Shown here: positions 32,761 to 53,100 of the stretch, piece by piece
How positions within the stretch are numbered: position 1 is the first letter of the stretch
Layout: each line of letters begins with the position of its first letter
Source of the DNA: Tubulanus polymorphus
Taxonomy: Eukaryota > Nemertea > Palaeonemertea > Tubulaniformes > Tubulanidae
NCBI RefSeq assembly: GCF_964204645.1
Contig: NC_134026.1
Span: forward strand, 19,672,650-19,736,649
Direction of reading: 5' to 3'
DNA length: 64,000 nt
Position numbers and translations under genes: made by a program
The notes under the pieces: model-generated
The model's database searches: none
Seen by the model: the letters and a program-made list of their open reading frames with translations, nothing else
Told to the model about the DNA's origin: nothing

Positions 32761-32769
32761 GATTTTGAC
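32761..32769. repeat. Target-site duplication, left copy (GATTTTGAC)
   Basis: Nine bases immediately outside the left TIR, identical to 50021-50029. Confidence 0.9.
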
Positions 32770-32813
32770 GCAAAAGGTTGAAAGCCTGTTTTGGTCGATG
32801 GCGAGTGACGTCA
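32770..32813 (+). repeat. Left terminal inverted repeat of the giant MULE
   Basis: 44 bp: 33 identical, one mismatch (G here, T in the right TIR), then 10 identical bases ending in TGACGTCA, a perfect CRE-type palindrome. Confidence 0.93.
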
Positions 32814-33472
32814 CTAGTACAAATTCCGAGCGGTTCGAATCCCACAATACGCCAAAATCACTACGGCCGCTCTGAGCGCACATCGCATTTCAACGTTGCC
32901 GTTTAATAATTGTAAAATAACTAATAATAGTTTAAGTTTTATAAGGGTTAGAAGTACATTGTATTTACTGCTAGTGTATGTATATATCATGTACGGTTGC
33001 GAGAAATCCCTGCCCTGGTTAAACAGTAAGTCCACTAAATCTTTAAATTTTAAGTTGTTTAATGAAACTATTATTGTTTTAAATTGTTAAAACTGCAAAC
33101 TATGGTTGTCGAAGATGCACCTTCTTCACATCCTTTGAAATCCTGGATAGCATCGCTGTCGGCAAAGACCTTCAGGTCTGTCTTCAACGGCACATCGCTT
33201 TGGAACAAGCGACTACTGTGTTATCAAATCTGAACTAGGTAAAAAAATGTTCCCCAAAAATAAAGACAAGTAAACGGATTAATTTGAGGTTTGAATGTTT
33301 TTGTTTATTTGTTGGTTCAAATCGAACCCTCGTCATCCTGATCTCCATAAATCTAAGAAAAGTATTCGCACACTTAAAACAATAAAATACGAGCAATAAG
33401 CAATAACATCAGACTGGAGTAAGTAACTTTACTTAATTCACAGATACAATCCTACACAAAACAATAGCTATT

Positions 33473-33713
33473 CAGTGGCGGATCCACCCCTCTATTTTTA
33501 CCGATGTAGCCGCAAATCTATGCGTTACTGAGTAAAAACCGAATGAAATCTTTCTATTAAGTAATGCTCAGAATGCACCTGCTTGCATCTATTTTTCCAA
33601 AAAATTTTTAGGAAGGGTCTTCGCGTTATCGGTGCTTGCTCTGGAATGGCTTACAGCCATCTGTTGTTGCTTTCATTTGCCCCCCCCCCTTCAAAATGCT
33701 GGATCCGCCCCTG
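33473..33713. mobile_element. Small hAT-like MITE
   Basis: The outer ends read CAGTGGCGGATCCA at 33473 and the complement of CAGGGGCGGATCCA at 33713, giving 14-bp TIRs with one mismatch. The CAGNGGCGGATCCA end is typical of hAT-derived MITEs in marine animals. No clear 8-bp duplication remains, so the call is tentative. Confidence 0.5.
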
Positions 33714-33734
33714 AGTGCAGACAAAATGATCGAC

Positions 33735-34395
33735 AAAGACATACAGAACTCTAAAACAACAGTTAACAATTTAAGCAACGATAGACAAAACAGATAGCTG
33801 ATTACTTTACAAACCTGTTGTCAGAACCTTAATTATTTTTACATGTACATACAGAGGACTGTTAACAATTCAACCAATGAAATTGCGATAGAGATACAGA
33901 ACATACAGCTTTAACAGTAAACAATGCAACCAATGAAATTGCGATAGAGATACAGAACATACAGCTTTAACAGTAAACCATGCAACCAATGAATTGCGAT
34001 TAACTAAGACCTACGAGCAATTATCAAGTTTGATAATTGCTCGTAGCTAAGACATACAGGACAAACAGGACTAACTTAATTGCGATAGACATACAGGACA
34101 TACAGGATTAACAGTAGACAATTCAACCAACGAATTGCGATTAACTAAGACATACAGGACTAAACCACAGGACATACAGGACTAACAGTAGACAATTCAA
34201 CAACCAATGAATTGCGATTAACTAAGACATACAGGACATACAGGACTAACTTAATTGCGATAGACATACAGGACTAACAGTAAACAATGCAACCAATGAA
34301 TTGCGATCGCGATCACAAAGACATACAGGACAAACAGGAATAAACCACAGTAAATTGCGATAAAAAAGACATACAGGACTAACTGCAGTAAATAT
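33735..34395. repeat. Degenerate tandem-repeat field
   Basis: Units of roughly 45-60 bp combine GACATACAGGACTAACAGTA, ACAATGCAACCAATGAATTG and CGATTAACTAA, repeated about ten times with internal loss. It lies 1-1.6 kb inside the left TIR, in the position where DNA transposons often carry subterminal transposase-binding repeats. Confidence 0.75.
34011..34046. repeat. Perfect 17-bp hairpin inside the repeat field
   Basis: Arms CTACGAGCAATTATCAA and its exact complement are separated by two bases. They replace part of one tandem unit. Confidence 0.85.
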
Positions 34396-35161
34396 ATAGG
34401 GCCTTAGGAATGCAAAATTCATTCATTTTGTCATTTGTAAACATTCCACAACTTATTTCATTATGTCATTTCCAGTTTTCAAAGGGAATTTTCTTAACTT
34501 CAGATGCCTCGAGGACATAAACATATAGAAAGATCTGTCCCAAAAAAATGTCAAGTGTCTTTCATAGTGCAATGGGCCCTGGTTTCCACGTTTATATATC
34601 ACATATAAAATTCTACAGAAACAATCAATGAATAAGTGAAAATTTACGAATAACAAACAAGACATTCAAGCAGTTGAGTAAGTTAAAATGGGACCAATCT
34701 ATATATATTATATATGGATTATACAATTTAATCAGGGACAGCCTTGAACCGAGGTTGATGTGTCCATACACTCTCTTCATACACTCTCTGAACATGCATG
34801 TATGTATACTGCTGCCAATTGATGATAAGTCAAGGATGTTGAAGTTCTAGACATGGTCAGAATCATCCAGAGACATCGGCACGCATCACAATAACTGATG
34901 ATTTTGCAGTAACCTGTAACATAAAAAATCAAGCGGTAATCTATTCACAAAATATATTTTCCTGAAAGAAAAAACCTGAAATAGAGCACTATAAACACCA
35001 GTGCATATACATCGCTTCTTAACCTTATATATAATCGAGTAAATATATAGGTGACTAAGTGACGGTCATTATAGGCTTCTACGTTCACCATGGGAAATGA
35101 AAATATTTCTAATGTCAGGGATTCATTCGAAACCCGATCAATAATATTCTATACAAACTAT

Positions 35162-38100
35162 TTAGGAAATCGGGTCACAATGAAAACAAAACCACCTGAT
35201 ATGTTCAGGAGGAGCCTCATTGATTGGAGCACATTTCCAATGATACCATCTATGGCAATTATCACATTCAATTGAGAATGTGGACTTTTTCTTAGGATTA
35301 GCATTGCATTTTTTGTGGCAGACAGGGCAGGTTTCAGCAACTAACTGAGAAGGGGTTTTTTCAACTTTTGATGACAAAAGATTATCTAGTTTCAATTTTG
35401 CTAGGTTTTGGAGGCCTGCATTTCCAGGTTGATCTATAAGAATTTCTAATTCTTTTTCAGAATTGGAATTATTGATTTCTGTAATAGGAGAACTGTTGAG
35501 ATAATCATCTCTATTATTATAATCGATTACAATAGATTTTTTCTTATGATGATTATGTTCAATACGAATGTGCTTTTGAAGGAATGTTTCACTTGCATAT
35601 GAATTAATAACCCCATCTGCCCAACAAATAGCACATGAGATAGGTTTCAAAGATGAATGAGAAGTGGATATGTGCCTATCTAGTTCCCTGCGACATGAAC
35701 AAAGATATGGAGGATTTATTTTGTCTTTAATACAAAAGGAACAGACAATACTTTTTTCAAATAAAACAGACTTCGAGTCATTTTTAACAACTGGTATTGA
35801 CTTAATATCTTTTGGTTTGGTATCTTTTGATTTTTTTGGTAAGGATGATTTATTCTGACTTAAAATATCTGCTGAAAATTCGATATCATTGCCAGGATCT
35901 GGATCAGTGGAGTCTATGGTTTCAATTTCTGATATTTTAGCTTTTTTACCTAGTTTGATAGCAGCATTTTCAACCATAGCAGAAAAGGATACACCTCTGT
36001 TAGCAGGTCTAATTATCTTTCGCCCTCCGTGTCTTGCATTCTCAGCATCTTTAGGCATTGTAACCTTAGGGCAGTAAGGGTCTATCACTTCAAGTTCAGG
36101 AAGGTTTATGGCAACCTGATTGTCCTTGATTGGACCCTCAGCACGCCTATGAGCCATATTGTGAGGTTGTCGTTTGGCAGGTCGTCCGCTTATTAACTTA
36201 ATTCCACAGTGGCTTTCATTATGTAAAATACTTAGAATGTGCCCTTTCCGAGCAGCATTGATATCATTCGAGCTAGCAATGTGGGAATGATCTTTTAACT
36301 TATCAATGAGGGTAGATGAAACAGAAATATTTTGTCGAGTAAAATTGTAAGTTGGCAGAGGCTCCACAATGTGGAATTTATATGCATCAATTAAAGCCTT
36401 CGTTGTGGTTATATTGTTTTTTTGGGCAAAACAGGCAAAAAGATGTTTGCAAAAATATGGTTGTCCAATCATTATAAAAGCTTCACAAGTACATATACCT
36501 AGTTTCAAATTGATTAAATGGCAATTACCATCTACGTATGAAAGACAATTTTCAGGAACGATTGTAATAACGTAATTGAATAAGATACGACTGGATATTG
36601 AATCTAAATTTCCTATGTACCTTCGGCATTTTTTTGAAATGTCATATGAATGTTCCTCGGATATTGATACTTTATCGGGGAATCTTTCTTCTAAAACATC
36701 AAGCTGATTGAATGTATATTGAGTATCACCATTGAAAAAATTATCATTATCTTCTAACCTATTTAAGTTCTTTCGTGAAGAACTCTTCACAACAAACCAA
36801 TTAGTTTCTTCATCATATTTTAAAATCTCATTATTCTGTAATAAATCAAAGGCTCTTTTGCAACACTTTTCTATCTTTTCAAGGTGACGTATATTCTTAA
36901 CTCGTTGGTCAAGTTGCTTAAATTGGAGATTGTTCATATTTGTCGCTTTGATCTCATCATTAAAAACATTTTCAAACAGTAATCGTACAAAAGATGATAT
37001 CAGTTTATTTAGGTGTCCACTTAAGTAGACATCATCTATTTGTTTGAATTTGCGCTCAGTAATATTATCAGTTAATAGCAAAGGGTTATTTCTGTTAGAT
37101 TGGTCTGACTGATAAATTGATTCAGCATTGAATGCCCCAGACCAAATTTGGGAATTAAACCAATTCTTCTTTAGGTAATCAATAAATAATGTTTTTGTAT
37201 CTTGCGACATAAGGTCTAAAGAAATATCATTCTCAATAAAACTAATAAATGAATTGGCTATATCAGTTCTAGAGGAAGCATCCCATGATCTCATAATGCA
37301 TTTGAAACCAGTTTCTAGAGGCTTGCAAAATAAGCGAAGTTCTTGATTTTCATTCATGAAGCGACGAATACACTGCAGGACATGAAAATTACATAGTACT
37401 GATTTAAGATTATTGTCAGATGCTCCTTGCTTTAGACTTGCATCTTTATCATGTTGTACAAAAGGACAAAATCTAGATGTTGATGAACATGGCTTGATTC
37501 TGAAAAAACCATTGCCATCATTAAATATATAGAATTCAGATGGATGATTACATTTTTCGTCTTTACATGGTGTATTGGCTAGAACTAACTGGATGGTAGT
37601 TGCATGAGTAGCCCCCCCTTCATCACTACTAATTGATGCAGCAGCAATACGTCCTTCATTTTTGTTGTCTGCAAAAGTTACAAATGAAGTTTTGAATTTC
37701 CACGAATTGAAATCATGTTTCACGTCAATACCAATGACAGATTGTCCAAAGTTGGATAAATGTTCCAGAGAACGAGGATCAGAGAGAATAATGTGATAAT
37801 TACGTTTGAGTGTGGCATCCCCTCGTTGAAATAAAAGGACAGATTCATAGTTACCCTCTAATAATTTTTCAGTATTTCTCCAATCAGAACTTAGAATAGG
37901 TATTTCGTCTTGAGATTTCATATGTAATTTTATCGAAGATTTATCAATATATTTCAATCTATTTGAAATTTGATCTAGGGTATGGTCATGACCGGCGCCA
38001 TCATTTACATTTGATACATGAAGGTTATTGTGAGCATTGGTGGCAGAAAGAACCTTCATTGCTGTGGCTTTCATCATGACTCTATTTTCATCCCATCTAT

Positions 38101-41100
38101 CTCTAGTAGATAAATTAGGTCGCTTTTTAATTTGTAAAGGAATATTGTCATGATATTGACCATTAAGTGGTTTGCTGAAGATTCTCCACTTGGATAAATC
38201 AGTACTAAATAATACAAGTTTCGTTGCCCAATAACACATAAAATGAGGGTGAATTAATTTTTTTGGCTCAAACTGCTGCCTTAACTTCACAGGACGATCA
38301 CGTTTATTCTTCAGCTTATAGTTGTAACAGTTGGAACAAAGTGTTTCACCATCAGCATTTTTCCTCCATTTGTTAGACATGGTAATGGAGCAATGAATAC
38401 ATTGTTTATCATTTAAAACAACGTCAATTTGACATGAGGGACAATTAGTGATGTTACTGGACATATTCAACTTTGAAAGATAATATCCACATGATGATTT
38501 ACAAACTGAAGACTTTGACGAACATTTTATGAGCATTTCTGCAGCCACAAATTGAGAAGTATCCTCAACAATTGGCTCAATAAATTCAAATTTATTATCT
38601 AATCTATGGGTTTGCCAATTCTTTTTTAATGTTAAGGAAGCTTTCATCGTTGTCTGGTTACCAACAAATGAAGGCCGCACATTCTTATGCAGACGAACTG
38701 TTTTTGTAAAATCAAAAGTGAATCTATCGAAATAATATTTTGTGTCAGCACCAGTCATTACTTCCCCATTTTCAACCCATTCATCACTAAGTGGATTCTG
38801 GTTGTTGAGGTATTTCTTGATAGTGTCAATGGCTACCTGGTCATTTGTACCTTGGTCTGTACAATGAAAACTTTTATACTTCGTCTTACTGCCAGTTGAA
38901 TGAAAAGCAACTTCAAGATAATGCTTTCCTCTCCTGATGCGATGGGAGATAGTAGTTTTAGAACCATTAATATGGGAAGTTAATGGTTCAGCTGAATTTA
39001 GAGTTAATGAGGATTGAGGATTCAAAATTGAGGATGTAGATTCAGGTGTAGATTCATTATTCGAAATTGGTGTAGATTCAGGTGTAGATTTAATAGTCAA
39101 AATTGGTGCAGATTCACTATTCGAAATTGGTGTAGATTCATTAGTCAAAATTGGTGCAGATTCACTATTCGAAATTGGTGTTGATTCAGGTGTTGATTCA
39201 TTAGTCAAAATTGGTGCAGATTCACTATTTGAAATTGGTGTTGATTCATTAGTCAAAATTGCTGCAGATTCATAATTCGAAATTGGTGTAGATTCAAGTG
39301 TTGATTCATTATTCAAAATTGGTGTAGATTTAGATTTGGCTGTAGTTAAGACTGATTTGCTTTTTTTAGGGGCAATATAAGAGTCTGACATCTTTAATTC
39401 AGAACTAGCTAGTGTATTATTTGACTCAGTTGATCGTTTATGTCTCTGTCTGCGAGATAATCGTGATATCTTAGAGAAAGTAGTACTATTAGCAGTAGGT
39501 TGAGATGACTTTGAGAAGAGTTGAGTAATATCAATTAGATGTTTCATAAGCCAATTAATCAATATCAATCTAACAAAATCAGAATAGTTAGAAATGTTCT
39601 TAAGATAAGATAATTCATTGGGAGATGAAAATACACTTGAAATATCCTTTTCATAATAGGTTGCAATGCAAGCACCAATTAATGTAGCAGGGCCACAGAC
39701 AGATGAACATGATTGGAGTGGGTAATAACTAGTACAATTATTACTACATACATGCACTGAATTTTCAGTAACAAAATGAGGATCATGGAGGTGGATATAA
39801 ACAGGATCAGGGCAATTCAAACCTTTCAAAACAGATCTTAAATGATTTTTAAATTCCCTTGGACAATCCCATGCTAGTGTATCAGCATAACACAGTTTGT
39901 TACTTTTTGGGTAAAAAACTGCTAGTGCATAATGATTGGCAACAACATGTCCATAAGAATTTAGAAATACGAAATCGTTTTGGGTGCCAACATGCAGGAA
40001 AAAAATTAGTTTATCACAACTTATGAGTGGATTAGGACCGAATCTTTTATATAAATTTGAAACATATTTCTTAGCATCAAATGTAAGTGGCATCATAAAT
40101 GCATGAATATTACAGTACTGTTCATTTATCATAGATGCAAAAGCATTTAACACAGATCCTTCAAACCATTTTTGATTAGTCATCGTCTGAAGTTCTGATA
40201 CAGATACGCTATTATTATTACCAACTGGAAATTGTTGAGAGGGTTTTAAGGAAAAGAGCATATTTGAAAATGCTTGAATCTGTTCCCAATCGACTGAATC
40301 AGTGGGGCTTAAAGGCTTACTATTTACCCAAAGATTCATGGCAAAAAGATCTTGTTGTTTGGTTTTAGCATAATGTAAGAAAAGAAACCTATTAATCTGA
40401 TCAATAGAATAGCAGCCTGTATCGAGTCTCACATGGATATTAATGGAAGGGTCACGGACAATCCTTGACTGCATCTGTGCTTTTATGTCCTCCAACTGAT
40501 TTTTGTGGGGCATAGTGGGGGCATCATCAGCCAAATGACATGAATTAGACATGTCACAAATTCTGAATGACGTGACCTTTGATGGCATAACAGGAGGAAT
40601 TTTCAAAAACTGATAGTCATTGAGGCACATTTCTGTTGGATTGTAACTAAAATTTCTTCTACATACATGTTCATCATCAGAATCATTCTCATCACTATCA
40701 TCAATTATGATTGGTTCGATACCTCCACCACCTGTGATACTTAGCTGTTTTTTGTTTTCCATCCAGCTATCTTCCTGCATCTTTAATCTTTCTATCCTTT
40801 CTTTCGAACTATCTTCCTGCATCTTTTCTGCTTCCTCTATCGTTCCTTCCGAGAAATTGTCACAAGCCGCGTCCTTTCCTTCTTCCTCCATTGTCCGCCT
40901 GAAATACACATTATCAACTCACTTTTTTTAGACATATGAATAGATAGAGTATGAAATTACCCATATAGGCCTAACATAAAACATGGGTATCTCTGAGTCA
41001 TTTGCATTAAGTCATTTAGATTTGTAGGTACTAAATTAATTGAATTATGTTGTACTTACATTTCAGTATGGTTTAAACTAACATGGTCTAGAAGATCTTT

Positions 41101-42017
41101 CCAATTGGTGAATTCAACTCCGCAAAAACATGTCGAGTCAGCAGGATCCGTCTGTGGATGAATAACCTAATGTGGAAGAGCACATTAATCTGTTTTTGCT
41201 TCAACATCTAAGCAAAAATAACAAAAATGAACCCGCGTCTCGCAGAAAGGGCATCAAACTTACATGTTCCACTGACTTCCTTTTTCTGTTAAATCTTTTA
41301 GTATTGTGACAACTTCTATTGTAGCATCCCTGAATATGAAAACAAAGCTTTACAGCATAAATCATACCAATACCAATGAATTTCTATAATTTCATTTCGA
41401 GAAACATATTACTCACGTTCTTAGTCTGATAAAAAGGAGTAAATAATTGAGGCTTTAAACAAATAGCAACACCAGCCACATCAATTTTAGTCATGTACTG
41501 GAAAAAAAAGACAGATTTGTGCATGCACAGCCTTTAGGTAATTGTGAAATAAAAGTGACCAAACTAATATTAAATCATAAGTTCTTGAGATGATATGTAC
41601 CTGGTCGAATGTGAAAAAGGCTCTTTGATCTTCACAACAGAATTGTTTCCTTGTATGATGCGCAACGTCAAAACTGCTATACTGGATTGAAGGATACAAA
41701 AAACTGTTAAAATATATCTAACTTTATAAAGATAAATCACGTACAAATCACTTAGGAAAACAACTTTACCACTATTGTTGAATCATCCCATGCTCTTGCT
41801 TGATCATCCTTCAATTTGTTTTTTGCTATCAGCTATCAATATGATTCATTAATTCAATGCAAGGATTTTGAATAAAGTGGTTTCGTATTCAAGTTATAAA
41901 AACTAATTGCAAATCATTCATTTTCTAGGATATCAATGCTAAATGATTACCTTTCGTCGATGGACTGCTCTACTTCTTTGCATCTTTTCAATCTCATATG
42001 GAAAGTATTGAGGGCAC
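35162..42017 (-). CDS. Multidomain MULE transposase: Ulp1 protease, GATA finger, DDE, SWIM, C2H2, PHD
   Basis: Seven exons are in one consistent frame: 42017-41951, 41832-41770, 41681-41601, 41497-41417, 41329-41264, 41166-41060 (C2H2-like CFCG...DHVSLNH) and a 5.7-kb last exon, 40898-35162. Residue numbers below count from the ATG at 40909. The Ulp1/C48 cysteine protease at about 290-420 has H326, D343, Q399 and C405 (SSVCGPATL). A Ser/Thr-rich degenerate repeat covers 525-625. A GATA-type finger at 837-861 has C-x2-C-x17-C-x2-C. The DDE core has D1062 (VIGIDVKHD), D1154 (HDKDASL), the CNFH motif at 1173-1176 and probable E1285 (DNITE). The SWIM finger is C1473-C1475-C1487-H1489. C2H2-like fingers lie at 1723-1751 and 1759-1785. 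The PHD finger is C1861/C1864, C1882/C1885, H1890/C1893, C1908/C1911. MULE transposases cut and paste with 8-10 bp duplications, agreeing with the element ends. The roles of the protease and PHD modules are unknown; chromatin or SUMO interaction is a guess. The start codon is not located; the frame may continue from the SGNH exons upstream. Confidence 0.88.
39035..39337 (-). repeat. Coding tandem repeat (ESTPISN / ESAPILTN)
   Basis: Minisatellite in the transposase exon encoding alternating 8-residue units between the protease and the GATA finger. All repeat lengths are multiples of three, so the frame is kept. It reads as a flexible, phosphorylatable linker. Confidence 0.85.
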
Positions 42018-42076
42018 CTGATTAAGAATCATTCATTATTTCCAGTACAATCATAAAATTTATGTAGTTTGCATAC

Positions 42077-42855
42077 CTGGTAATTGGATAAAATAATGCA
42101 ATTCTACGTACATTTCATCTTCATTTTTCAATAGCAGTAGTTCCATTATCCTGTTATTTATGAACTGATTTCCCTTACGGCTGGGGTGTAACAAGTCAGT
42201 CCTAGATCACAAAATTTAGAAAAAAACAAGTTAGTTTAAATCGCGAAAAAATGCACATAACCTACTGGGCTTATTAAGATTAAACGATTACTTACGGTGA
42301 AAGGAGATCTCTTGAGAAGTGAAAATCAACGAACTTTACACCAAGTGTAAAGCATTCGCGGTGCAGCATTTCATTGTAATGAAATATTTTTGTGTCAGCA
42401 TCGAAACTTTAAAAAAGAAAGAAATTTAAAAATCATTACATCGATCATAAATATAGTACTTCAAGAAAAATCTATTCTTGATACTTACTCATCACATCGA
42501 GGAAAAAGAGCTGGTACAATGATGGTCCCAGTACATTTATAGAGCAACAATCGAATTAATTCAACGTGTCTTCGCAGAACAATCTCAAGCGGGACATCAC
42601 GCGTCATATTATTTGTTCCAACATGGACGATTAGTTGTTCCACATTCAGCATCTTCACCTTTTTCAATTCTGTAATATACAACTAATCAGTAACCCAATG
42701 AAAATGAACAATATAAATCAGTACTGAACCGAGAAATTACCTTCCATCAATGTTTCAATGGTTCCTCCGGGGCACACGATCCTTGTCCATTCAAATAAGC
42801 CTACACCATCTAGCCCAGCATACTTTAAAATGCTGTCTGCTACGAGACCAATACG
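42077..42855 (-). CDS. SGNH-hydrolase module of the giant MULE (four exons, ~177 aa)
   Basis: Exons 42855-42741, 42669-42489, 42406-42296 and 42201-42077 join in phase. They give the SGNH/GDSL blocks in order: VADSILKYAG (block I, Ala in place of the usual Gly before Asp-Ser), CPGGTIETL (block II), LIVHVGTNNM (block III) and TDLLHPSRKGNQ (block V, Asp-x-x-His). The catalytic Ser, Asp and His are therefore present. Families of this type are esterases/lipases, and SGNH domains also occur in ORF1 of some CR1 LINEs. The next exon (42017-41951) is entered in phase 1 from here. That frame gives GALNTFHMRLKRC and then a stop (SKKQIEG) in the following exon, not the transposase frame. It is either a separate protein, a product of alternative splicing, or the result of a one-base indel. 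No upstream exon with a start codon was identified. Confidence 0.8.
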
Positions 42856-44243
42856 CTACAAAAAAGATTATTTGTCAGTCTCAGGCCAATATCACAGGGA
42901 GGTGTGAGAGAGCACACTGGTTACTGTAAGACCCTACTACATGCAAAAGAAGTGACACATATATGTATATCAATGTGATAGAATTGATTGAAAAAATTGT
43001 GCATAATAGTAGCTAGTGCCCAAAAATAGAACACAGTGTTATTGAAGTGAAAATTTCTAAAATCCTCTGAAGCGGTGCTTATTTGGTAGCTACATGGGTA
43101 TTCTAATTGAATAAGCATAAAGATAAGCGTGCACACACAGTAGCCTATGCATAAACAAGGGCCAGTTTCACCTTCACCTAAAAGTCCTGCAGTGTGAAGA
43201 CTAACTTGTTCACCTAAACCACCTCTACCAGGCTGTGGAAGGCCTAACATCAGGCACTAAATTAAAAGATTCCTCTAAATCAAATTATCTATAAACATCC
43301 TCTTAATTGCAGGCAGACTGATTCAGGGAGGGGTGCAGCCCAAAATAGGGCATACATATCAGTATCATATATAATTAAAAATCAAAAGGGCACCAGATCA
43401 TCAGAAAACATAATACCTATATTTTGGAAGTAGGCCTACAGAGAACATGTTTTGGAATATAAGCTTTTTAAAAATACTTGTTGATATTTTTAATTTTTCC
43501 TTTAAATTTCATTGCGACTTAAAAGTTTTAAGGGGTGTACACCCCTGTATACTCTCCTGATCTGCCCCTGAATTGCCACTTAACAAAATTTCTCAGCTTA
43601 ATTGTTGGCTAACTAGCTCAGTGAAACTGGGACCAGACCTAATGCATACACCCTCAGTGGCCAGGGCCAGGATTAAACAGTTAGGCTACGTATATAAATA
43701 AAGGAATGAAAAGTACTTATCCTGAAATTGGTTAGGCTATCTATCTGCAACAAGAAATACATTTTCATTGACTCTGAATACAGGGAACTACCATTCTTCT
43801 GTTTCGAGGCCTTAAAATTTATTGTTTATTTTTTGTTGCTGGATTTGGAATGGTTGTTGGAATATTTAAGGCCTAGTAGGTGGTGACTGTGTACGGGCAA
43901 CATAGGCCTATACCCAGTGGCATGGCAATGGCATGCCACTGGGTACCCACTACTGCACTATAGTATACTGCCTACGGCTACTGCGACTGGTGGTTCGGTT
44001 GGCAGAAATTACTTTTTAACATGGGGGGGGGGGAGGGGGGAAGTAAGCGTGGATGAAGACAAATTAATTTAGCCGAGTAAGTAGCAAGCAAGTAAAGTAG
44101 TGGCAGTACAGTAGGCCTAGCGACAATGTGAGTGTGGTGGTAACGTGGCCGTGGTGGCAATAACAAGACTCCAAAACTGGCAAAAGCCAAAATTAAAAAG
44201 CCCTGCCGCCGCGCGGTCGCGACGCCTCGCCTGCACCACCGTG
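42856..44243. other. Giant MULE interior between SGNH exons and the nested element
   Basis: No supportable gene. It contains a G-run at 44023-44040 and many TAGGCCTA-type words. The 5' exon(s) of the SGNH/transposase gene should lie here or beyond the nested element. Confidence 0.5.
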
Positions 44244-44245
44244 TA
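44244..44245. repeat. TA target-site duplication of the nested element (left)
   Basis: TA directly outside the left TIR. The partner TA is at 49731-49732. Confidence 0.8.
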
Positions 44246-44270
44246 GGGTAACTCCACGTAATTTCGGAAG
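44246..44270 (+). repeat. Left TIR of the nested element
   Basis: 25 bp, perfect match to the complement of 49706-49730. Confidence 0.95.
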
Positions 44271-44273
44271 ACC

Positions 44274-44716
44274 ACGTAATTTCGGAAGTTTTCTTCTACG
44301 GCCTCTCAGCAGTCGCGTAGAGGGAATACCTATTCGGACGAGCTTAAATTTGAAAAAGGGGAGGTAGGTTGGTATTTCCTGGGAATTCCACGGAAATCCG
44401 CGCCGTTTTGATGACGTAGTACGCATTTCTTCCCGGCACACGAAACCAGCGAAGCAGGAGATAAAAATCGGTCATGTAAGTACATTATTGATTGCCCCAT
44501 TTTTACGGCATTTCGCGGCCAGCTGTTATGTAAACACTACTAAGAAGTTCTAGGAAGTAAAAAGTTTGTTTATAAACATTCATTCGCTATTGGAATACGG
44601 TCATTGATGAAATATCAGCGATTTTTAGAAACTCGCTCGCCTACACATAATTTCGGATATCGTATACCCGGTTATTCTGGCTCGTTCACGTAATTTCGGA
44701 AGTTCCGAATTTATGT
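44274..44716. repeat. Subterminal repeat cluster, left end
   Basis: Copies of the TIR core ACGTAATTTCGGAAG lie at 44274-44288 and 44688-44702 (exact), with a variant ACATAATTTCGGA at 44644 and an inverted TTCCGAATTTATGT at 44703. They are likely transposase binding sites. Confidence 0.75.
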
Positions 44717-45048
44717 ATAGATGGTATTTGTGTGTGTTTTCTCGGTAGTCTATCATCAAACAGGCCTTTTTCTGAGATAACTGTCACAAAAGAGTGCATA
44801 CTGAAAACAAATGCAAATTGATTCATCATTTTAGCCCCAGAGCCTAGGCCTATAACCTAGTCTCCATAACACAGTTATCAGTAGGCCTAAATTATGAAAA
44901 TGCCATTCTGAGATCAGGTTGTAACTAATAACATGTGATGATATTTACTAAGGAAAATAATTAAGGCTTATTTATAAAAGAAAATGAATTCATTTTATTA
45001 TTATTTTTATAATCAACATGATATTTACAATGTTTTTTATTTTTAAGT

Positions 45049-48000
45049 ATGTCAAAAGTGTATCGGCGTTGGACAGAAGTGCAAATGGGTGAAGCTGTTG
45101 AGGCTGTTCAGAATGGGATGTCAATATTATCGGCAGCAAAAAACTTTGGCGTACCAAAATCAACATTACATGACCGAATAAGTGGGAAAATTCCTGCAGG
45201 AAGGAAACTAGGTCGACCGACGAATCTGTCTGAGGCAGATGAATCAAAACTTGCGGATTTCGCGAAAAACCGTGCAGACCTCGGTTACGGTTTTTCAAAG
45301 GGAAATCTATTGAAATATGCGGGTGATCTCGCCTTAAAAAGGGGGACACCATTTAAACAGGTAGGCCAACGATTTTCACTAAAAGGTTGTTGTTTATCCC
45401 TTATAATTAATACTGGTATATATATTTTACTTTTAGATTATCCCGAGTGACCAGTTCTGGGCTGGCTTTAAAACTAGAAACCCCACTGTTGCACTCCGAA
45501 AGCCAGAGGGCACTGCGGCAATCCGACATCAGTGCATGAATGTTAAGAAGGTTGGAATGTTCTTTAGATCGGCCACAAAAGTATTGCTAAATGCTCAACC
45601 GATGCATATTTGGAATCTCGATGAAACTGGCGTTCAGTTTTCTCATGTCCCCGGAAAAATTGTTGCACGGTAGGCTTTGAACTAAATTAGCCTATCATTT
45701 AAATACTTCAACTGTTGGTCTATAAATAGCCCTTATCAAACCCAAGTTATTAAGCCCAGCAATATTCTAATGAGTTGTTGAAGTATTTTTAATTTCCGAC
45801 TATCAGCAATCATCCAGATACAGAAACTCAATACCACAGTCATAAAACAACAGATTTAGGAATGAACGTTATAACGATGAAAATTTTATTTTCAAAACTC
45901 TTATTTACAGAAAAGGGAGCAAGTATGTTCAATCTCGAATCAGCGGCAATCGCGAAACAGTTACGATCATGGCATGTGGAAATGCTGCTGGGCAGATGCT
46001 GGCCCCTAACGTTATTTTTAAGGGCAAGACGGCAGCATCATTACTCTCAGTTGACACAATGAACGCACCGGCAGGTACGACAGTTTCTGTATCGGAGAGT
46101 GGTTGGACGAAACAGGTAATTAGTTGTCAGTCACATTTTGAATCAGGCTCCTGAAGTGAAAAGCATTGTCAAATTTCATGTATTCATGATTTCAACAGGG
46201 AATTGCAACGATTTGGTTTAAGAAAAATTTTTTACCTGCTATTGGAGCGGCTCGTCCACAGATTTTGATATCCGATGGACATAACAGCCACAATTTTCTT
46301 GAATTGGTCGAGCTGGCAAGAGAAAATGGAGTAACACTGTTAGAATTACCAGAACATACCTCACATTGGTTGCAACCTTTAGATCGGTAAACACACTTCT
46401 TACAGATTTTATTAAAGAATACATCTTCCAATGAAATTAGACCTCAACTGACTAATTAATGTTTCACTTTCTTTGAAGATCATGCTTTAAGACATTGAAA
46501 GCATCATGGAATCGCCTATGTTTGAATTTTCATAACGAAAATCCGGGACGTATAGTGAACAAAAGTTGTTTCTTTGAGATCTTCAGACCAACATGGCTCA
46601 GTATAACCCCGGAGAACCTTATAAATGGTTTTCGAGCATGTGGTCTTTTTCCATTCAATCCCGAGATCATTCCCAAGGAAGCTTTTTTACCATCAAGCAC
46701 AAGAGTTGCTGATGTGGTGAGTTACTGAATAATAAGTAACCCGTATTGCCCTTAATTGAGGTTAACTGTACCTACATGTTTTTTTTTATAATGGGTTATA
46801 GGTATCAGATCCTACAATTGAAACGATGCAAGATCCATTTTCAGGATTATCGAAGGTATTTTTCTCGTAAAACTTGCACAAAAATCTAAAATATATCTAA
46901 GAGAACCTAGTTCCATATATATTATCAAATGTAAAGATGAAAAAAAAAAATTTTCTTCACATTACTTTTTACTTAGGAATCTGCATCTAATGTATTGACA
47001 ACAGTTGAAAAACCATTTCGTGAGGTGTGAATAGTGATTTAATTTCACTTCAACTTTTTTATGATTAATTTAATTTGTTTAGATTGTTTTTGGACTAATG
47101 ACCTGTTCGAGTGTTTGTTGCATTGTGTGTTACAGTTTCTAACCTTTTTCATGATCATTGATTTTTTCAGTCTCTCAAGTCCAAGCACAATATATCCTTT
47201 TCAAAATGATAATTGCAGATTTTATTGATGATTTCAAATGGATGAGATATTTTAATTTGTGAATTGTTTTATAATCTTCTCAATCAGTGGTTGACCATAT
47301 TATTTTGTAGACACTGCCTATAACTATCGATGGTCATTCCATTGCCTTAAAGGCAATGGAATCAGCCATTTCCTCGGAAATGAAGAAAAAATTTGAAGAA
47401 CGATACACCGAAGGCTGTGACTTGACTAATGATGCACTGTATTCAGCATGGAAAATTTTGAAAACTAAATCATCAGCTGAAGTTATCGATAGCTTCCCGA
47501 TCGAAAATAACTCATCCCCAGGTAAGAGTTAAGATCATTTTTAAAATAATGATAATACTTATTCGCCATGTAAATATGCAGTATAAATAATATATAATTA
47601 CAAACAAATTGCATATACTTACTGATTAATTTTGATGTACTTAGCTGATCCCGACAATGATGTGCTGGATTATCCCGTACTGATGCCAACTGAAAAGAAA
47701 AGAAAACGCGATGATAAGCGTTATTTCATTCTAACTGCGGATGATGCATATGCAAATGCGGTTTCAAAACAGAAGTTGAAAGAACAAAAAGAAAAGGAAA
47801 AACTAGAAAGAAGGAAAAAGAAATGTTTGACAACGGTAAGTTTAAGAACAGTTCTACGATTCATATCAAACGGTGAAAAACACACATCATAAAGAAATTA
47901 ATTCAATAATTAATAAAAACTCTTGCAGGCTTCAACAAGACCACAAAATGGAACTTGCTCCATTAATCCTGTAAGTTGAAAAAGATCTCTTGAAATGAGC

Positions 48001-48786
48001 AAATTTAATGAAAATAATATTCATACTTTGTATTCCTTTATTGTTCAGGCTCCATCAAGACCAGACAAGGAAAAATTAGCCGTAGTTCATGTGAGTAAAA
48101 AAATATGTTATATGTGTTCACTTTCGTCAGTTTATTTGTAATATGAGTAACTGAGGTACCCGGTAACCGGTAGGCTAAAATTATATATAAGTTTATTGAA
48201 CAAAAATTAAACCGTTTAATTAAAATTTCATATTGAGAATGGCTATAATGTGTAATTCTGAATTTCAGGATCCTGTGCCTGAGACAAGTGGTGTCAACAT
48301 GGTTTACGAAATCAACATAAGGTAAATAACTTGCTGCGCTTCTAAATATAAAATATAAATATCTAGTCACTAGTGATGAATAATTTATTTGTACCGGGGT
48401 ACTTACTTTGTAGTGAAGGTTCATATATTGCCCTTTATCAGGAAGGTGAGAAGCGCAGGAAGCACTTATACTTTGGAGTGGTATGTATTAATCGGCTGAA
48501 TTATTTTATCTGAAAGGAAAAATACAATTCTCCTGTGATTGTTATGTTTAACTGCTTGCAGATTCTAGAGATATTGGACTTCGGAGAAGTAATATCCGTT
48601 CAGTTTCTTGAACAACACTGCAAGAAAAATTTATTCGTTTGGCCCGATGTGGATATTATCGAAGAGCATCCCGTTGAGAATGTACTGAACAACTTGAAAC
48701 CGCCTGAGGTGGTAAATACGAGGATGCAGATGGCATTTCAAGTTGATGAATTTTCAAAGACTTGCGATTTGTTCGCTTGCATGTAA
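45049..48786 (+). CDS. Pogo/Tigger-like transposase (702 aa, 14 exons)
   Basis: Exons: 45049-45360, 45437-45669, 45911-46115, 46199-46386, 46479-46716, 46802-46855, 46977-47024, 47311-47521, 47645-47835, 47929-47970, 48049-48090, 48269-48321, 48414-48480 and 48562-48786. Every junction is GT-AG and phase-matched; the total is 2,109 bp. The N-terminus is a Psq-type helix-turn-helix (about residues 10-45: [30 protein letters not shown]). A DDE_1 catalytic core follows with D166 (IWNLDETGV), D276 (LISDGHNSH) and D312 (THSW-like [10 protein letters not shown]), spacing DD35D. The roughly 390-residue tail carries a Lys/Glu-rich coiled segment (about 555-595) and no domain I recognise. Pogo-type enzymes cut and paste at TA. 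The many small introns are unusual for this class. Confidence 0.92.
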
Positions 48787-48837
48787 TAGGCTTACTACGT
48801 TTTGTTACGTAGAGAGGCCTTAAAGTTGTATTGCTAT

Positions 48838-49045
48838 TGTATTGTATATACGTGTGTGCGTGTGCGTGTATCTATGTATGTGTGTATGTATTTATGTATG
48901 TGTGTATGTATTTATGTATGCGTGTATGTAGTTACCAAGTATTTATGTATATATTTATGTATGTGTGTATGTATGTATGTATTTACCAAGTATTTATGTA
49001 TGTGTGTATGTATTTATGTATGTATGTATGTGTATATATGTAGGC
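48838..49045. repeat. (GTAT)n-rich microsatellite
   Basis: Compound TATG/TGTATG/ATTTATG repeats in the 3' region of the nested element. It creates spurious open frames. Confidence 0.9.
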
Positions 49046-49114
49046 CTATGTATGTTTGTTTTTTGTTACTCTTTTTGTTACTCATCTAGTCTTAAAAATG
49101 TTTATAAATAGTGC

Positions 49115-49120
49115 AATAAA
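49115..49120 (+). promoter_or_regulatory. Poly(A) signal of the nested transposase gene
   Basis: AATAAA 329 bases after the stop codon, still inside the element. Confidence 0.6.
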
Positions 49121-49309
49121 AATTTATTACTTTCTGTTACGCCTTTTAGGCCTACATTACATGTTAGTTAATCAGTTTATTACATGTACCTTCTCGACGG
49201 TTGCTGCATTTCTAACGGTCTTCCTTTTATCTTGGTGAATTGGGATTACCATATCCACCATCTAGTAGGCTGTAGAAATTCATACAATTGCTGGAAATTC
49301 CACTCGGAT

Positions 49310-49400
49310 AAAAAAAATATTTATGGGATTCGAACCCAAATGGTGTCTTGTCCCTAGATGTTTCTGATCTAACCAGCTGTTACTAAATGCTGCCACCCCT
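49310..49400 (-). mobile_element. tRNA-derived SINE fragment
   Basis: The minus strand has an A-box-like CAGCTGGTTAGATCAGA and a B-box GGGTTCGAATCCC about 40 bases apart. No cloverleaf is intact, so I read it as a SINE head and not as a tRNA gene. Confidence 0.45.
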
Positions 49401-49480
49401 GTAGAAGCAATTAGTATAACCCAAATACGTTCTAGCCTAGTTTCATAGAACGCATACACAAAAATAACGAATATATGCAT

Positions 49481-49538
49481 TTCCGAATTTATGTTGACTA
49501 TTTCCGAAATTACGTAACCCGGGCTTCCGAAATTATGT
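49481..49538. repeat. Subterminal repeat cluster, right end
   Basis: TTCCGAATTTATGT, TTTCCGAAATTACGT and CTTCCGAAATTATGT in succession, mirror images of the left cluster sites. Confidence 0.75.
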
Positions 49539-49705
49539 TGTCTCTATAAATGTCTCATACTGGTAAGTTATTTTAATGGATATATTTCAAATCGATTCTG
49601 GAGTAATATTTGGAAGCAGAAATATCAGGCTGTAAAAATATCCACCTTCCAACGGCATTTGTTCATGTCGAAAATCATCCGTCAAAACAGCGCATCCGAA
49701 AATAC

Positions 49706-49730
49706 CTTCCGAAATTACGTGGAGTTACCC
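49706..49730 (-). repeat. Right TIR of the nested element
   Basis: 25 bp, perfect complement of the left TIR, followed by TA. Confidence 0.95.
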
Positions 49731-49732
49731 TA

Positions 49733-49976
49733 CGATCCTCGCGGCGTTCACCAGTGTTACCCAGTGAGTTTTTTATAATCTTGCAATCTACCTCTTTTTT
49801 CAAACCAATATTCCCACCAACTGGTCCGGAGACAAGCTTAACACGTTCGGAAAACATGATTCACAATCTTTTAATCAACAGCCAGCAAGAATACACTTGA
49901 CAGAAAATTCAAATTCAGCGGTTAACCGTTAAAAGTGAGTTGTTTAGCTGTGGGAGTAACAAAAAGGCGATCTTGA
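49733..49976. other. Right subterminal stretch of the giant MULE
   Basis: 244 bases between the nested element and the right TIR. A minus-strand open frame starts at ATG 49857 (MFSERVKLVSGPVGG) and runs into the nested element. It is a candidate first exon of the SGNH/transposase gene, unproven. Confidence 0.4.
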
Positions 49977-50020
49977 TGACGTCACTAGCCATCGACCAAA
50001 ACAGGCTTTCAACCTTTTGC
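49977..50020 (-). repeat. Right terminal inverted repeat of the giant MULE
   Basis: Complement of 32770-32813 with one mismatch. It includes the TGACGTCA palindrome at its inner edge. Confidence 0.93.
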
Positions 50021-50029
50021 GATTTTGAC
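50021..50029. repeat. Target-site duplication, right copy (GATTTTGAC)
   Basis: Identical to 32761-32769. Confidence 0.9.
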
Positions 50030-50108: not shown

Positions 50109-53100
50109 ATGTCGTTATTCGGAAAGAGGAAGGGCAAGAAGAAAGATTCGCCGCTTCAGGAACAACCGCCGTCTATGATGGACGGCGAATATGGCACCAC
50201 ACCCCAAAATCACCAGCAACAACAACAGCAACACGCTAATGGGTCTGCATCATCAGCAGCCGCGACAGGAGCAGCAGCAGAAGGCGACATGAACAAGGCA
50301 AGGCCAAAATTCCAGTTCCACTGCCAATTGGCGCAGGGCAGTCCGACCGGTATTATTAGCGGATTCACAAATGTTAAAGAACTCTATTTGAAGATTTCTG
50401 AATGTTACGGAATCGATGTGAAAATGGTAAGCATACTCCATGCCGATGAACAGGTTTACTTCCTTGTTTGTTTCTTGGAAAAATATGTATTTCTTTAATT
50501 TGATTCATTGACAAATATAAATGGTGTAGTTGGCCTAATAATAGCCTATTCATTATCAATCATGTATTCATCCATTCCATGCAGTAAAAGTGGTAGAACT
50601 TTTGGTATGAACTGCCGTACTCTTTAAGCCTGTTTCCATAGACTGTTGATATGACTGCAAGTAGAAACCCTCTTGTCCGGATCAGTCTTCTTTCACTTTC
50701 AATGAAGCCTAATCTGGACCATGAAAGTCTGATTCCATTGACTCTTATAGACTACTTTTACAATCCATTGTCTCCAGATGAGTCCAATTTCGTCCATTGA
50801 TCCAGATATTACTCTCAGCCCACCTATAAGCCTAACTTAAATAAATGTGAAATAGTGTTAAACCTGATTGGCATTCAGGAATTTGCGTCTCAGGAAATTC
50901 ACACGAAAAATCCTCATTATCATACGTAGCCTAATACTAATAGCTCATTGCCAGTTGATTTCTATGTAGGCCTATTACAAGTTTGTTATTCTGTAGTAAA
51001 CTCCAGGGTCCCTACAGGTCCTTGATTCCTTGTAAACCCCAATCTAAAAGAATATTTTTCAAGGTCCTTGTCGAATAGGCCTACCCTTTGATTTGAGTGA
51101 AGTGTCCAAAAGTCCTAGAAAACTCCTTGAATTTTGAGAATGGGAATTGGCAATCGGAAATTTAGGAAATTCACGCTGTAGGCAAACTTGTTCCTGTGTT
51201 AGTTTGTGTCTTTCACTGATTCTTTACTCAAAATCTTAGAAAAATATCCGGGTTCTTTCACTTGCGGGTTTGGATAGAATTTGGCATGCGGTTCTGTCAT
51301 TTTCATAGAGCCTAACAAATACTTGGGAATTTCATATAGGACGATGGTTATTTCTGTACAAAATTATGTAGTTCATCCAAAGCTGATGGGTGCAACTCCC
51401 ACCGCAACTGTTCTCGTGTAGACGAAGAAAAGAGCCAGGGAGTGGATTCGGGTGATTTTAGAGTAATGGGTGGCAGATTCAGGTGGTTCGAGTGCTAATG
51501 GGTTAATGAGGATTTCTCCTTTTCCTGAGCCCAGACAGTTACTGTAAAGTATAATGGTCCCGTTTGTCGACATCAGTTAACCGCCTATGTTACTGTACCA
51601 TTTGGAAAATATGTGTTAACGTGAAAAATCGGTAGAATTGGTATTTTAATGTGAAAAAGCGTGAAGAAAACCATGTGCAAAATGTGGTGTGCGAACTATC
51701 TAGGGTTCATCAATCCTTGCTGCCACTGCCGGTCCAGTCTTCTGTGACACGAGGTCGTTTCATCCGATGAGTAGATATCCGAGAATCAATCATATTGAGC
51801 ACTGTCTTCTGTGGCAGGGGTTCATTCATACCATGTGCGAAATCGAGTGTAATTTCATGAATCGGCCTTACGTGTCAGTTTTCATCAATTCAGCAGAAGC
51901 TGGTTTATAAAATGGGCCTTTTAGCTAACTACCATGGTAACAATGCTGATCAAAACCACGAAGCCTTTGTCATTGAAATTAAGTATTCATATTGATTATT
52001 ACGAAAATTCGTAATAGTTTCTACCTAATTCGATTTGTTGATTCAGCTAGAATAACAATGTTTCATAAGCCTAATAATAGCTTCACCATCTCATTCAGCT
52101 TCACCCCCATGGTCCTTTCTGAATATTCTTCAGACTGTGGAGATAGCCTATGTTCTTCAAATCACGTTGTAAAAAAGAGTTGTATTGACAAAGTAAACAG
52201 ATTGTTGGTTTCAATTGCCCTCAATCATGTGAAGCTATCCAACAAATAGGGTCTGAATTTCTGAAAATCATTCCATAAACACGGAGAACAGTGGCCGCGA
52301 GTTTTAGCATCAACTCAGATTTTCCGTGGCATGGAAACTTCGTGTTTGGTTTCTTGATGCTGTTTTGCCTGTCAAAACCGTACCTTAATCCAACTGAATG
52401 CAGCCCCTCGTACAATCAACAATTCATTTTGGAATAGATGACACTCATATACAACACATCAAGATGCTTGTGTATTAGATACATGTGTCTCGGCGCTACC
52501 GTCATAAGTTTGACGTGTGCGGATGTTTATTGATCGGTTAAATTTAGATCGAAATATAGCAATAAAAAGCAGTGACTATATATTGTTGGAGCGATTCAAG
52601 GTTCTAGACGTAGGTGCTTTGGGAATGGTTCCTCCGTCAGTCCTATCTGTGAGCTGGTAGACCTTTCTTCGTACTATCCACCTGTCGTTAAGGCCTGCGG
52701 TTTATCCTGGAGCAAGATCTGAGGGTGTTGCCAAATATTTTTAAAGAGTAATTAATGAGAAAAGAAGCAGTGCCGTTTTGACCCATTAGGCCTGCGGGAT
52801 TTCTAACAAAATTGTGCATTTTTATAAAAAAATGCCCTTTTATGTTTTATTTCTTTTTCAACAAAATAATATTTTGCCCTTTTTGAAAAAAAACCCTTCA
52901 GTTCAATGGACACTCAAAATTTCGAGGGTCTTACTGAAGTCTTGTAAGCCTGCTTAGAGCTAGTGTCAGTCATAGATAGTGTTAGGCTAAATTAGAACGT
53001 TCAGTTCGTCAGGAGATACATGTATTTCATTTAGACAGGCGTGGCCACACGCAGTCTTGTGGGTCTCTTACGATATTCTCAGATACTGCTGCGAGTTTTT

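Follow-up and report, generated by a model that had tools for sequence, protein, structure and literature searches.

The window analyzed here, a stretch of 64,000 nucleotides from the genome of the nemertean Tubulanus polymorphus (NCBI RefSeq assembly GCF_964204645.1, contig NC_134026.1, positions 19,672,650 to 19,736,649 of the forward strand), carries at positions 32770 to 50020 a mobile element that is best explained as an autonomous, recently active, Rehavkus-type cut-and-paste DNA transposon of 11,764 bp, inserted just upstream of a GIPC gene. That this is a transposon, that a pogo-type element is nested within it, and that it moves by cutting and pasting we consider very probable; this confidence does not extend to the roles proposed below for its PHD and Ulp1-like domains. 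A previous reading of this DNA from its letters alone (the sequence-only reading) had taken the whole unit for a complete 17.25-kb Mutator-like transposon. Our analysis keeps the transposon, halts its own sequence at 11.76 kb, and puts it beside the canonical Mutator-like elements (MULEs) rather than among them.

The window copy begins with GCAAAAGGTTGAAAGCC... and ends with ...GGCTTTCAACCTTTTGC. Its 44-bp terminal inverted repeats (TIRs) differ by one mismatch, and the perfect 9-bp direct repeat GATTTTGAC stands on both sides of them (Table 1), both as first described from the sequence; an inverted-repeat listing gives 45 nt for the arms, as one base of the duplication also pairs. The sequence-only reading had proposed searching the genome with the element's ends for pairs flanked by 9-bp duplications. 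We ran this search with the terminal 131 bp at either end against the source genome (267.8 Mb, 77 contigs), scoring the best 40 of 65 candidates for the left end and the best 40 of 70 for the right, so that the counts are lower bounds. There were at least 32 matches of at least 115 bp per end, plus at least 8 short matches to the TIRs, and at least 23 left-end and at least 12 right-end matches were identical over all 131 bp. We then compared 29 copies taken from the genome with their flanks, which together with the window copy make 30. In 25 of the 30 copies we find both termini, allowing one mismatch at most over the outermost 40 bp, and 20 of these 25 have a perfect 9-bp duplication, a different 9-mer at each site. 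Copies ending at other positions were looked for and not seen, as the 25 share their end bases. The other five comprise two with degraded right ends, one that lacks its first 11 bp, and two with no right end in the stretch read. Because so many copies have both ends, and most of these a duplication specific to their site, a chance origin of the ends and the duplication is excluded. The NCBI entry, an uncharacterized protein gene (LOC141914437), could also be taken to mean a fixed host gene or a segmental duplication with accidental inverted repeats, but the 25 dispersed copies with the same end bases, 20 of them in different perfect duplications, refute this explanation, to which we attach next to no probability.

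The element's own size was determined by comparing copies. The copy at C2:27,091,850 (C numbers denote contigs) is 11,764 bp long, and the window copy is identical to it throughout, apart from 5,487 additional bases that begin at 44246 and are a 5,485-bp element plus a duplicated TA. This insert has perfect 25-bp inverted ends, beginning GGGTAACTCC, an HTH_psq DNA-binding domain (E 2.3e-12), and pieces of a DDE_1 domain (E 1.4e-7 and 0.0037). The TA duplication, the inverted ends, and the helix-turn-helix and DDE_1 domains that mark pogo-type transposons are thus all present; the insert differs from such transposons in that its coding pieces are spread over several separate frames, and its gene seems to be split into exons. 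Its insertion site is uninterrupted in 21 of the 29 other copies, and BLAST alignments run straight across it, with small differences, in five more; of the remaining three, C6_22.71 has a deletion with one end point exactly at the site, and the other two have no sequence read that far. Because an otherwise identical copy lacks the insert and the site is uninterrupted elsewhere, 17.25 kb is not the element's own size. The unit is a nest, in which 5.49 kb of what had been called a complete transposon belong to an unrelated pogo-type element.

One could still regard the 17.25-kb unit as a single composite transposon with two transposase genes that as a rule transposes in one piece, since perfect ends and a perfect duplication enclose both components and the pogo-type insert is young, its first 175 bp being 100% identical to four other places in the genome. 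However, the insert has ends and a TA duplication of its own, and the site counts above speak against a joint unit. We reject the composite as the usual form on account of the otherwise identical 11,764-bp copy, and give it only a very slight chance overall. At least 120 of the first 175 bp of the nested element are matched at 24 genomic places, the window's included, with 77 to 100% identity. In C6_22.71, it is a second deletion that ends at the TA of the pogo site (junction near element position 5443), either a coincidence or the trace of an excised insert.

The family also contains internally deleted derivatives of 2.1 to 9.7 kb that keep the termini of full copies. The same 5,362-bp deletion is found in three copies of 6,864 to 6,865 bp on two contigs (C3 twice and C11) and, accompanied by a second deletion, in a fourth copy. 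Because these four sites each have a perfect duplication of their own, the deleted forms must transpose, presumably with transposase supplied by intact copies. The 1,918-amino-acid frame of the element is uninterrupted in 7 of the 30 copies, including the window's, and a break near residues 1,177 to 1,180 is common to three others. Furthermore, the identity of the window and C2:27,091,850 copies over 11,764 bp suggests very recent movement. Exact microhomology of 2 to 7 bp was found at 13 of 19 tabulated deletion junctions, a raw count, which would fit interrupted gap repair after excision. For 7 of the 20 perfect sites, a search with the two flanks joined gave no off-site match crossing the junction by more than 12 bases among the best 40 of 523 candidates; these candidates were crowded by one repeated flank, and the result is no proof that empty sites are absent.

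The protein that the element encodes is listed by NCBI as uncharacterized protein LOC141914437 isoform X2 (Tubulanus polymorphus). Residues are numbered here as in P0001, the protein of the NCBI gene model, and conservation is counted in an alignment of seven full-length proteins. From the N terminus, the chain holds an Ulp1-like region, Ser/Thr/Pro-rich repeats, a GATA-like ribbon, an HxHFxCxW...KL motif, a DDE-type core, a SWIM motif, two Cys/His pairs, and a PHD finger. By our own reading, the upstream exons may add a C2H2-like finger, the HxHFxCxW...KL motif is reminiscent of GCM/FLYWCH fingers, and two further Cys/His pairs stand between SWIM and PHD.

The catalytic set of Ulp1 (C48) proteases is His-Asp-Gln-Cys, and these four residues are identical in all seven proteins. 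A profile of the seven searched against PDB found yeast ULP1 (1euv, E 0.0066) and SENP5 (E 0.0077); the single-sequence search was weak (E 0.13), and no Pfam protease matched in the window frame or in P0001 to P0004, P0006, and P0009 to P0012. The GATA-like ribbon matched GATA-1 in a profile search (E 6.3e-12). The SWIM finger announced by the sequence-only reading is there, its CxC...CxH motif being present in 7/7 proteins, with a PF04434 match in P0006 (E 0.0041) that lies below the family's cut-off. The PHD finger matched PF00628 (E 3.8e-5, 24.1 bits against a cut-off of 24), and its best solved-structure match was TAF3 (E 2.8e-9), followed by CFP1, BPTF, and ALFIN-like, whose PHD fingers we take to be readers of trimethylated lysine 4 of histone H3 (H3K4me3).

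For the transposase core, D1142/D1146, C1253..H1256, and E1365 are identical in 7/7 proteins and D1234 in six, with Gly in its place in the Oratosquilla protein. The C..H motif that follows the second Asp and a predicted helical stretch ahead of the Glu are MULE-like traits. From these conserved residues and a low-confidence structure model, we infer that the catalytic residues are D1142 or D1146, D1234, and E1365. That model contains strands and helices, with D1234 at the end of a strand and E1365 within a helix; on this weak evidence, the arrangement is what might be expected of an RNase H-type core carrying a helical insertion. Of the MULE DDE core claimed earlier, there remains a set of conserved, putative DDE-type residues with no Pfam MULE match.

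Protein searches found long relatives of 1,727 to 2,270 amino acids in Patella caerulea (two, with 7 and 6 member sequences), in Oratosquilla oratoria, and in ENA sources, and shorter ones that include a protein of Nymphon striatum. As tabulated in PMC6446971, Rehavkus elements have a 9-bp duplication, TIRs of 26 to 400 bp, one open reading frame, a PHD finger, and a minisatellite before the 3' TIR; their tabulated hosts are Arthropoda and Annelida, and they serve there as an outgroup of MULEs, beside the canonical clades. The Tubulanus element has a 9-bp duplication (perfect in 20/25), a 44-bp TIR, a single open reading frame with a PHD finger, and a minisatellite, variable in length among copies, before its 3' TIR. 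Because the PHD finger, the minisatellite, the duplication, and the ends match this printed description, we place the element with Rehavkus, probably as sister or outgroup of the MULEs. Compared by description with Rehavkus-1_TC and Rehavkus-1_HR, it agrees in duplication length, TIR range, single gene, PHD finger, and minisatellite; it differs in its host phylum, Nemertea, and in its length of 11.8 kb, Rehavkus-1_TC being 9.5 kb according to PMC10218199. It also has an Ulp1-like domain, and the term Ulp1 occurs 0 times in the main text of PMC6446971.

Ulp1 domains have been reported on Mutator transposases of hydra, lancelet, and plants, and Ulp1 together with PHD in Ginger1-9_HM (PMC2836005). 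The Tubulanus element shares with these an Ulp1-type protease, in some cases with a PHD finger, on a transposase. In contrast, Ginger1 has a Gypsy-integrase-like core with a C-terminal Ulp1, whereas here Ulp1 is N-terminal and PHD is C-terminal in one chain. The novelty of domain content supposed by the sequence-only reading is therefore smaller than it seemed, since Ulp1 (in hydra and lancelet Mutator) and PHD (in Rehavkus) were already in print. We found no paper on the Tubulanus element in the open-access literature; the kind is known, and this member is new to us. In PMC13359780, 322 arthropod MULEs span 1.4 to 10.0 kb, mostly 2.5 to 5.0 kb, with TIRs mostly of 20 to 95 bp. The Tubulanus element resembles the arthropod MULEs in TIR length and, among animal MULEs such as Muta1 and Phantom, it resembles Muta1 in its duplications (8 to 9 bp in Muta1), its nonautonomous derivatives, and a possible genic bias; it differs from arthropod MULEs in being larger and in having a PHD finger, a term found 0 times in that article's main text. 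In the same genome, a second family at C6:15,723,173-15,728,515 has a 1,787-amino-acid open frame with 47% identity over residues 722 to 1993 and 36% over residues 138 to 563.

Several results weigh against the account of a Rehavkus-type transposon given so far. Five of the 25 two-ended copies lack a perfect duplication: C1_1.59 has a perfect 9-bp repeat shifted by one base, C4_18.60 and C2_12.92 have partial ones (7/9 and 6/9 matching), C1_25.466 has none (3/9), and the left flank of the C13 copy is just 6 bp and does not fit a duplication. Among the junction microhomologies, 6 of 13 are just 2 bp, and a single shared deletion accounts for two of the 19 rows. No Pfam transposase (PF10551, E up to 1) matched in the set of proteins searched for proteases, and the sole transposase-like trace in Pfam was a weak ZSWIM1-3 RNaseH-like match in two proteins (E about 0.04). 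The structure models are poor (predicted local distance difference test scores of 37 and 56, the latter being the model described above), and Foldseek against PDB returned nothing at E <= 0.001. Additionally, 3 of the 7 aligned full-length proteins (P0003, P0004, and P0009) have no PHD at the aligned C terminus, and the placement beside Rehavkus goes by published description. A fold search of a viral library gave at best a Bracoviriform inaniti protein (E 1.9e-3, template modeling score 0.36, from a low-confidence model), and one scan of viral contigs found no relative.

The element might instead be a canonical MULE, of Phantom or another animal clade. Its 9-bp duplication, SWIM motif, C..H motif, and helical stretch before the Glu are MULE-like. 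SWIM or FLYWCH fingers occur in several groups of animal MULEs (PMC6446971). However, PF10551 was not matched in the Tubulanus protein or in the relatives examined, and the table in PMC6446971 gives a PHD finger for Rehavkus only, listing for the aphid Phantom a minisatellite and no PHD. We therefore judge a canonical MULE unlikely, at roughly one chance among six. What stands of the claimed Mutator-like identity is a cut-and-paste transposon with exact ends, 9-bp duplications, and many copies; its traits fit Rehavkus, beside the canonical MULEs.

We also examined where the element inserts. In the window it lies just before the start of a GIPC gene, identified by a GIPC1_GH1 match (E 6.8e-13). 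The 20 perfect duplications have no strong consensus, the strongest position being T in 13/20. We scanned 3,173 7-mers within 100 bp of 24 sites with both flanks, using Bonferroni correction and a background of 457 overlapping windows from one 46-kb region of the 64-kb window. CGGAAGT/ACTTCCG was the sole 7-mer to survive correction (3.9e-4), with 6/24 sites against 2/457 background windows and 0/46 distal flank pieces; the 6-mer CGGAAG likewise survived (0.0029). All six occurrences lie 9 to 20 bp from the duplication, with none elsewhere in flanks of up to 290 bp (one left flank, 123 bp). Four further sites have AnATGGC, a motif chosen by eye, no more than 28 bp away, and two have it farther out. 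ETS-type motifs are promoter motifs, and we take CGGAAGT and AnATGGC to be the ETS and YY1 motifs of metazoan core promoters.

The apparent preference could reflect chance or sampling, or a liking of the transposase for CGGAAG itself rather than for promoters, and we regard this as a serious contender whose probability falls somewhat short of one half. There are only 24 sites, and the background is one region read in overlapping windows. CGGAAGT was found in 0/12 held-out single flanks, a test that is underpowered because about 1.5 were expected (6 in 48 flanks); CpG near versus far from the sites was marginal (Wilcoxon p 0.057; against the window background, p 0.017); and two of the six CGGAAGT sites share a 16-bp flank stretch and are not fully independent. 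All of this counts against promoter choice. Against chance, the unbiased scan left one motif after correction, at the same short distance each time, and a second promoter-type motif, chosen by eye, stands near further sites. Gene bias has precedents: maize Mu prefers gene 5' ends (PMC2774946), and 64.3% of 171 mosquito Muta1 sites are in gene regions versus 28.7% for random sites, with little or no sequence preference (PMC5225508). The occurrence of CGGAAGT near insertion sites is possibly new.

In the mechanism that we envision, the transposase would bind the 44-bp ends through its zinc domains, cut by means of a DD...E RNase H-type core, and insert with a stagger of 9 bp. Deletion derivatives would arise when the gap left by excision is incompletely repaired, and could then be mobilized in trans. 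More tentatively, the PHD finger might read H3K4me3 and steer insertion to active promoters, and the Ulp1-like domain might act at the site by stripping host or transposase proteins of SUMO or ubiquitin-like marks. The full form of this idea, a promoter-targeting integrase with a TAF3-like PHD finger on H3K4me3, insertion 9 to 20 bp from an ETS or near a YY1-type element, and an Ulp1-like domain editing SUMO, is a doubtful possibility in our estimation, and PHD-guided promoter insertion is offered as a hypothesis, not as a result. To our knowledge, no animal cut-and-paste transposon has been shown to select its sites through a built-in histone-mark reader, and a literature search showed none by title among the 10 of 43 papers listed. 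If the PHD finger does direct insertion to promoters, it would suggest how Mutator-type elements reach gene starts and would provide a chromatin-guided integrase. As of 2019, very few Rehavkus elements had been identified, the known ones in Repbase only (PMC6446971). The Tubulanus family, evidently of recent activity and unusually complete, offers seven copies with an open transposase frame as well as deletion derivatives and exactly located sites, and makes both the relation of Rehavkus to MULEs and its activity testable.

Table 1. Features of the element and its surroundings (window coordinates)
Feature	Position	Strand	Details
Whole element, Rehavkus-type (probable)	32770..50020	-	11,764 bp of own sequence plus nested insert
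Target-site duplication, left	32761..32769	.	GATTTTGAC; sequence and copy comparison
Target-site duplication, right	50021..50029	.	GATTTTGAC; sequence and copy comparison
Left 44-bp TIR	32770..32813	+	3' end relative to transposase gene; inner end is palindrome TGACGTCA
Right 44-bp TIR	49977..50020	-	
Minisatellite	33758..34400	.	Between transposase 3' end and left TIR; units of 56 and 77 bp by Tandem Repeats Finder, plus diverged copies
Open frame, 1,918 amino acids	35162..40918	-	Main coding exon 40897-35165 of NCBI model, plus stop
PHD finger	35177..35329	-	C-terminal
SWIM-type zinc motif	36443..36493	-	CxC...CxH
DDE core (putative)	37055..37726	-	D1142/D1146, D1234, E1365 of P0001
GATA-like zinc ribbon	38276..38407	-	
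In-frame repeats	39045..39368	-	Ser/Thr/Pro-rich linker
Ulp1-like cysteine protease region	39680..40252	-	H406, D423, Q479, C485 of P0001
Upstream coding exons of NCBI model	41059..41494	-	Residues 1-84 of P0001
Nested pogo-type transposon	44246..49730	+	25-bp perfect inverted ends GGGTAACTCCACGTAATTTCGGAAG; TA duplicated at 44244-44245 / 49731-49732
Nested element, HTH_psq frame	45022..45450	+	DNA-binding domain, E 2.3e-12
Nested element, DDE_1 frame	46190..46390	+	Part of the domain
Start of host GIPC gene	50109..50498	+	ATG 89 bp past the element's last base

Further observations concern the termini. The palindrome TGACGTCA, presumably a cyclic AMP response element (CRE)-type site, closes the inner side of both TIRs (32806-32813 and 49977-49984) and could act as a promoter or enhancer. 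Just inside the left end, at 32832-32843, is a tRNA B-box-like sequence, GGTTCGAATCCC, and T-arm-like stretches resembling it occur in the flanks of the C1:18.92 Mb and C5:13.48 Mb copies; an ARAGORN scan found no tRNA in the window.

Other observations concern individual copies. Five carry an insertion of about 540 to 580 bp at reference position about 11,105, which in the C8 copy is a near-perfect palindrome next to TA; it is probably a miniature inverted-repeat transposable element that now travels with the element. In four copies of 4,765 to 4,791 bp, the central 2.3 kb are unrelated to the element and contain a minisatellite and, by our own reading, perhaps a DDE-transposase-like fragment. 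A 461-bp piece of this middle has six other strong genomic places (89 to 99% identity), so the middle is more likely another repeat, and a captured host gene (Pack-MULE) in this group is disfavored. PMC8277862 reports no Pack-MULE in 100 animal genomes.

As for insertion sites, C4 has two copies near 9.906 Mb in head-to-head orientation, with about 180 bp between them; one of the two lacks its first 11 bp. At C6:9.94 Mb, the insertion immediately precedes an ATG (AAAG/ATGGCGG), from which a reading frame continues for at least 39 codons (MADTGKHDIRGALANPGGWTSLL...); a host gene may begin here. An Rfam search of the C8 flank gave a sub-threshold match only; the left flank of this insertion is repeated (86 to 89%) in clusters at C6 1.06-1.74 Mb and C3 0.41-1.32 Mb, and the repeat stops within a few bases of the insertion point. 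Finally, TTCCGGAAATTGAAATAGG occurs in the flanks of both the copy at C6:13.25 Mb and that at C5:13.48 Mb, which places the two in or beside one repeat family.

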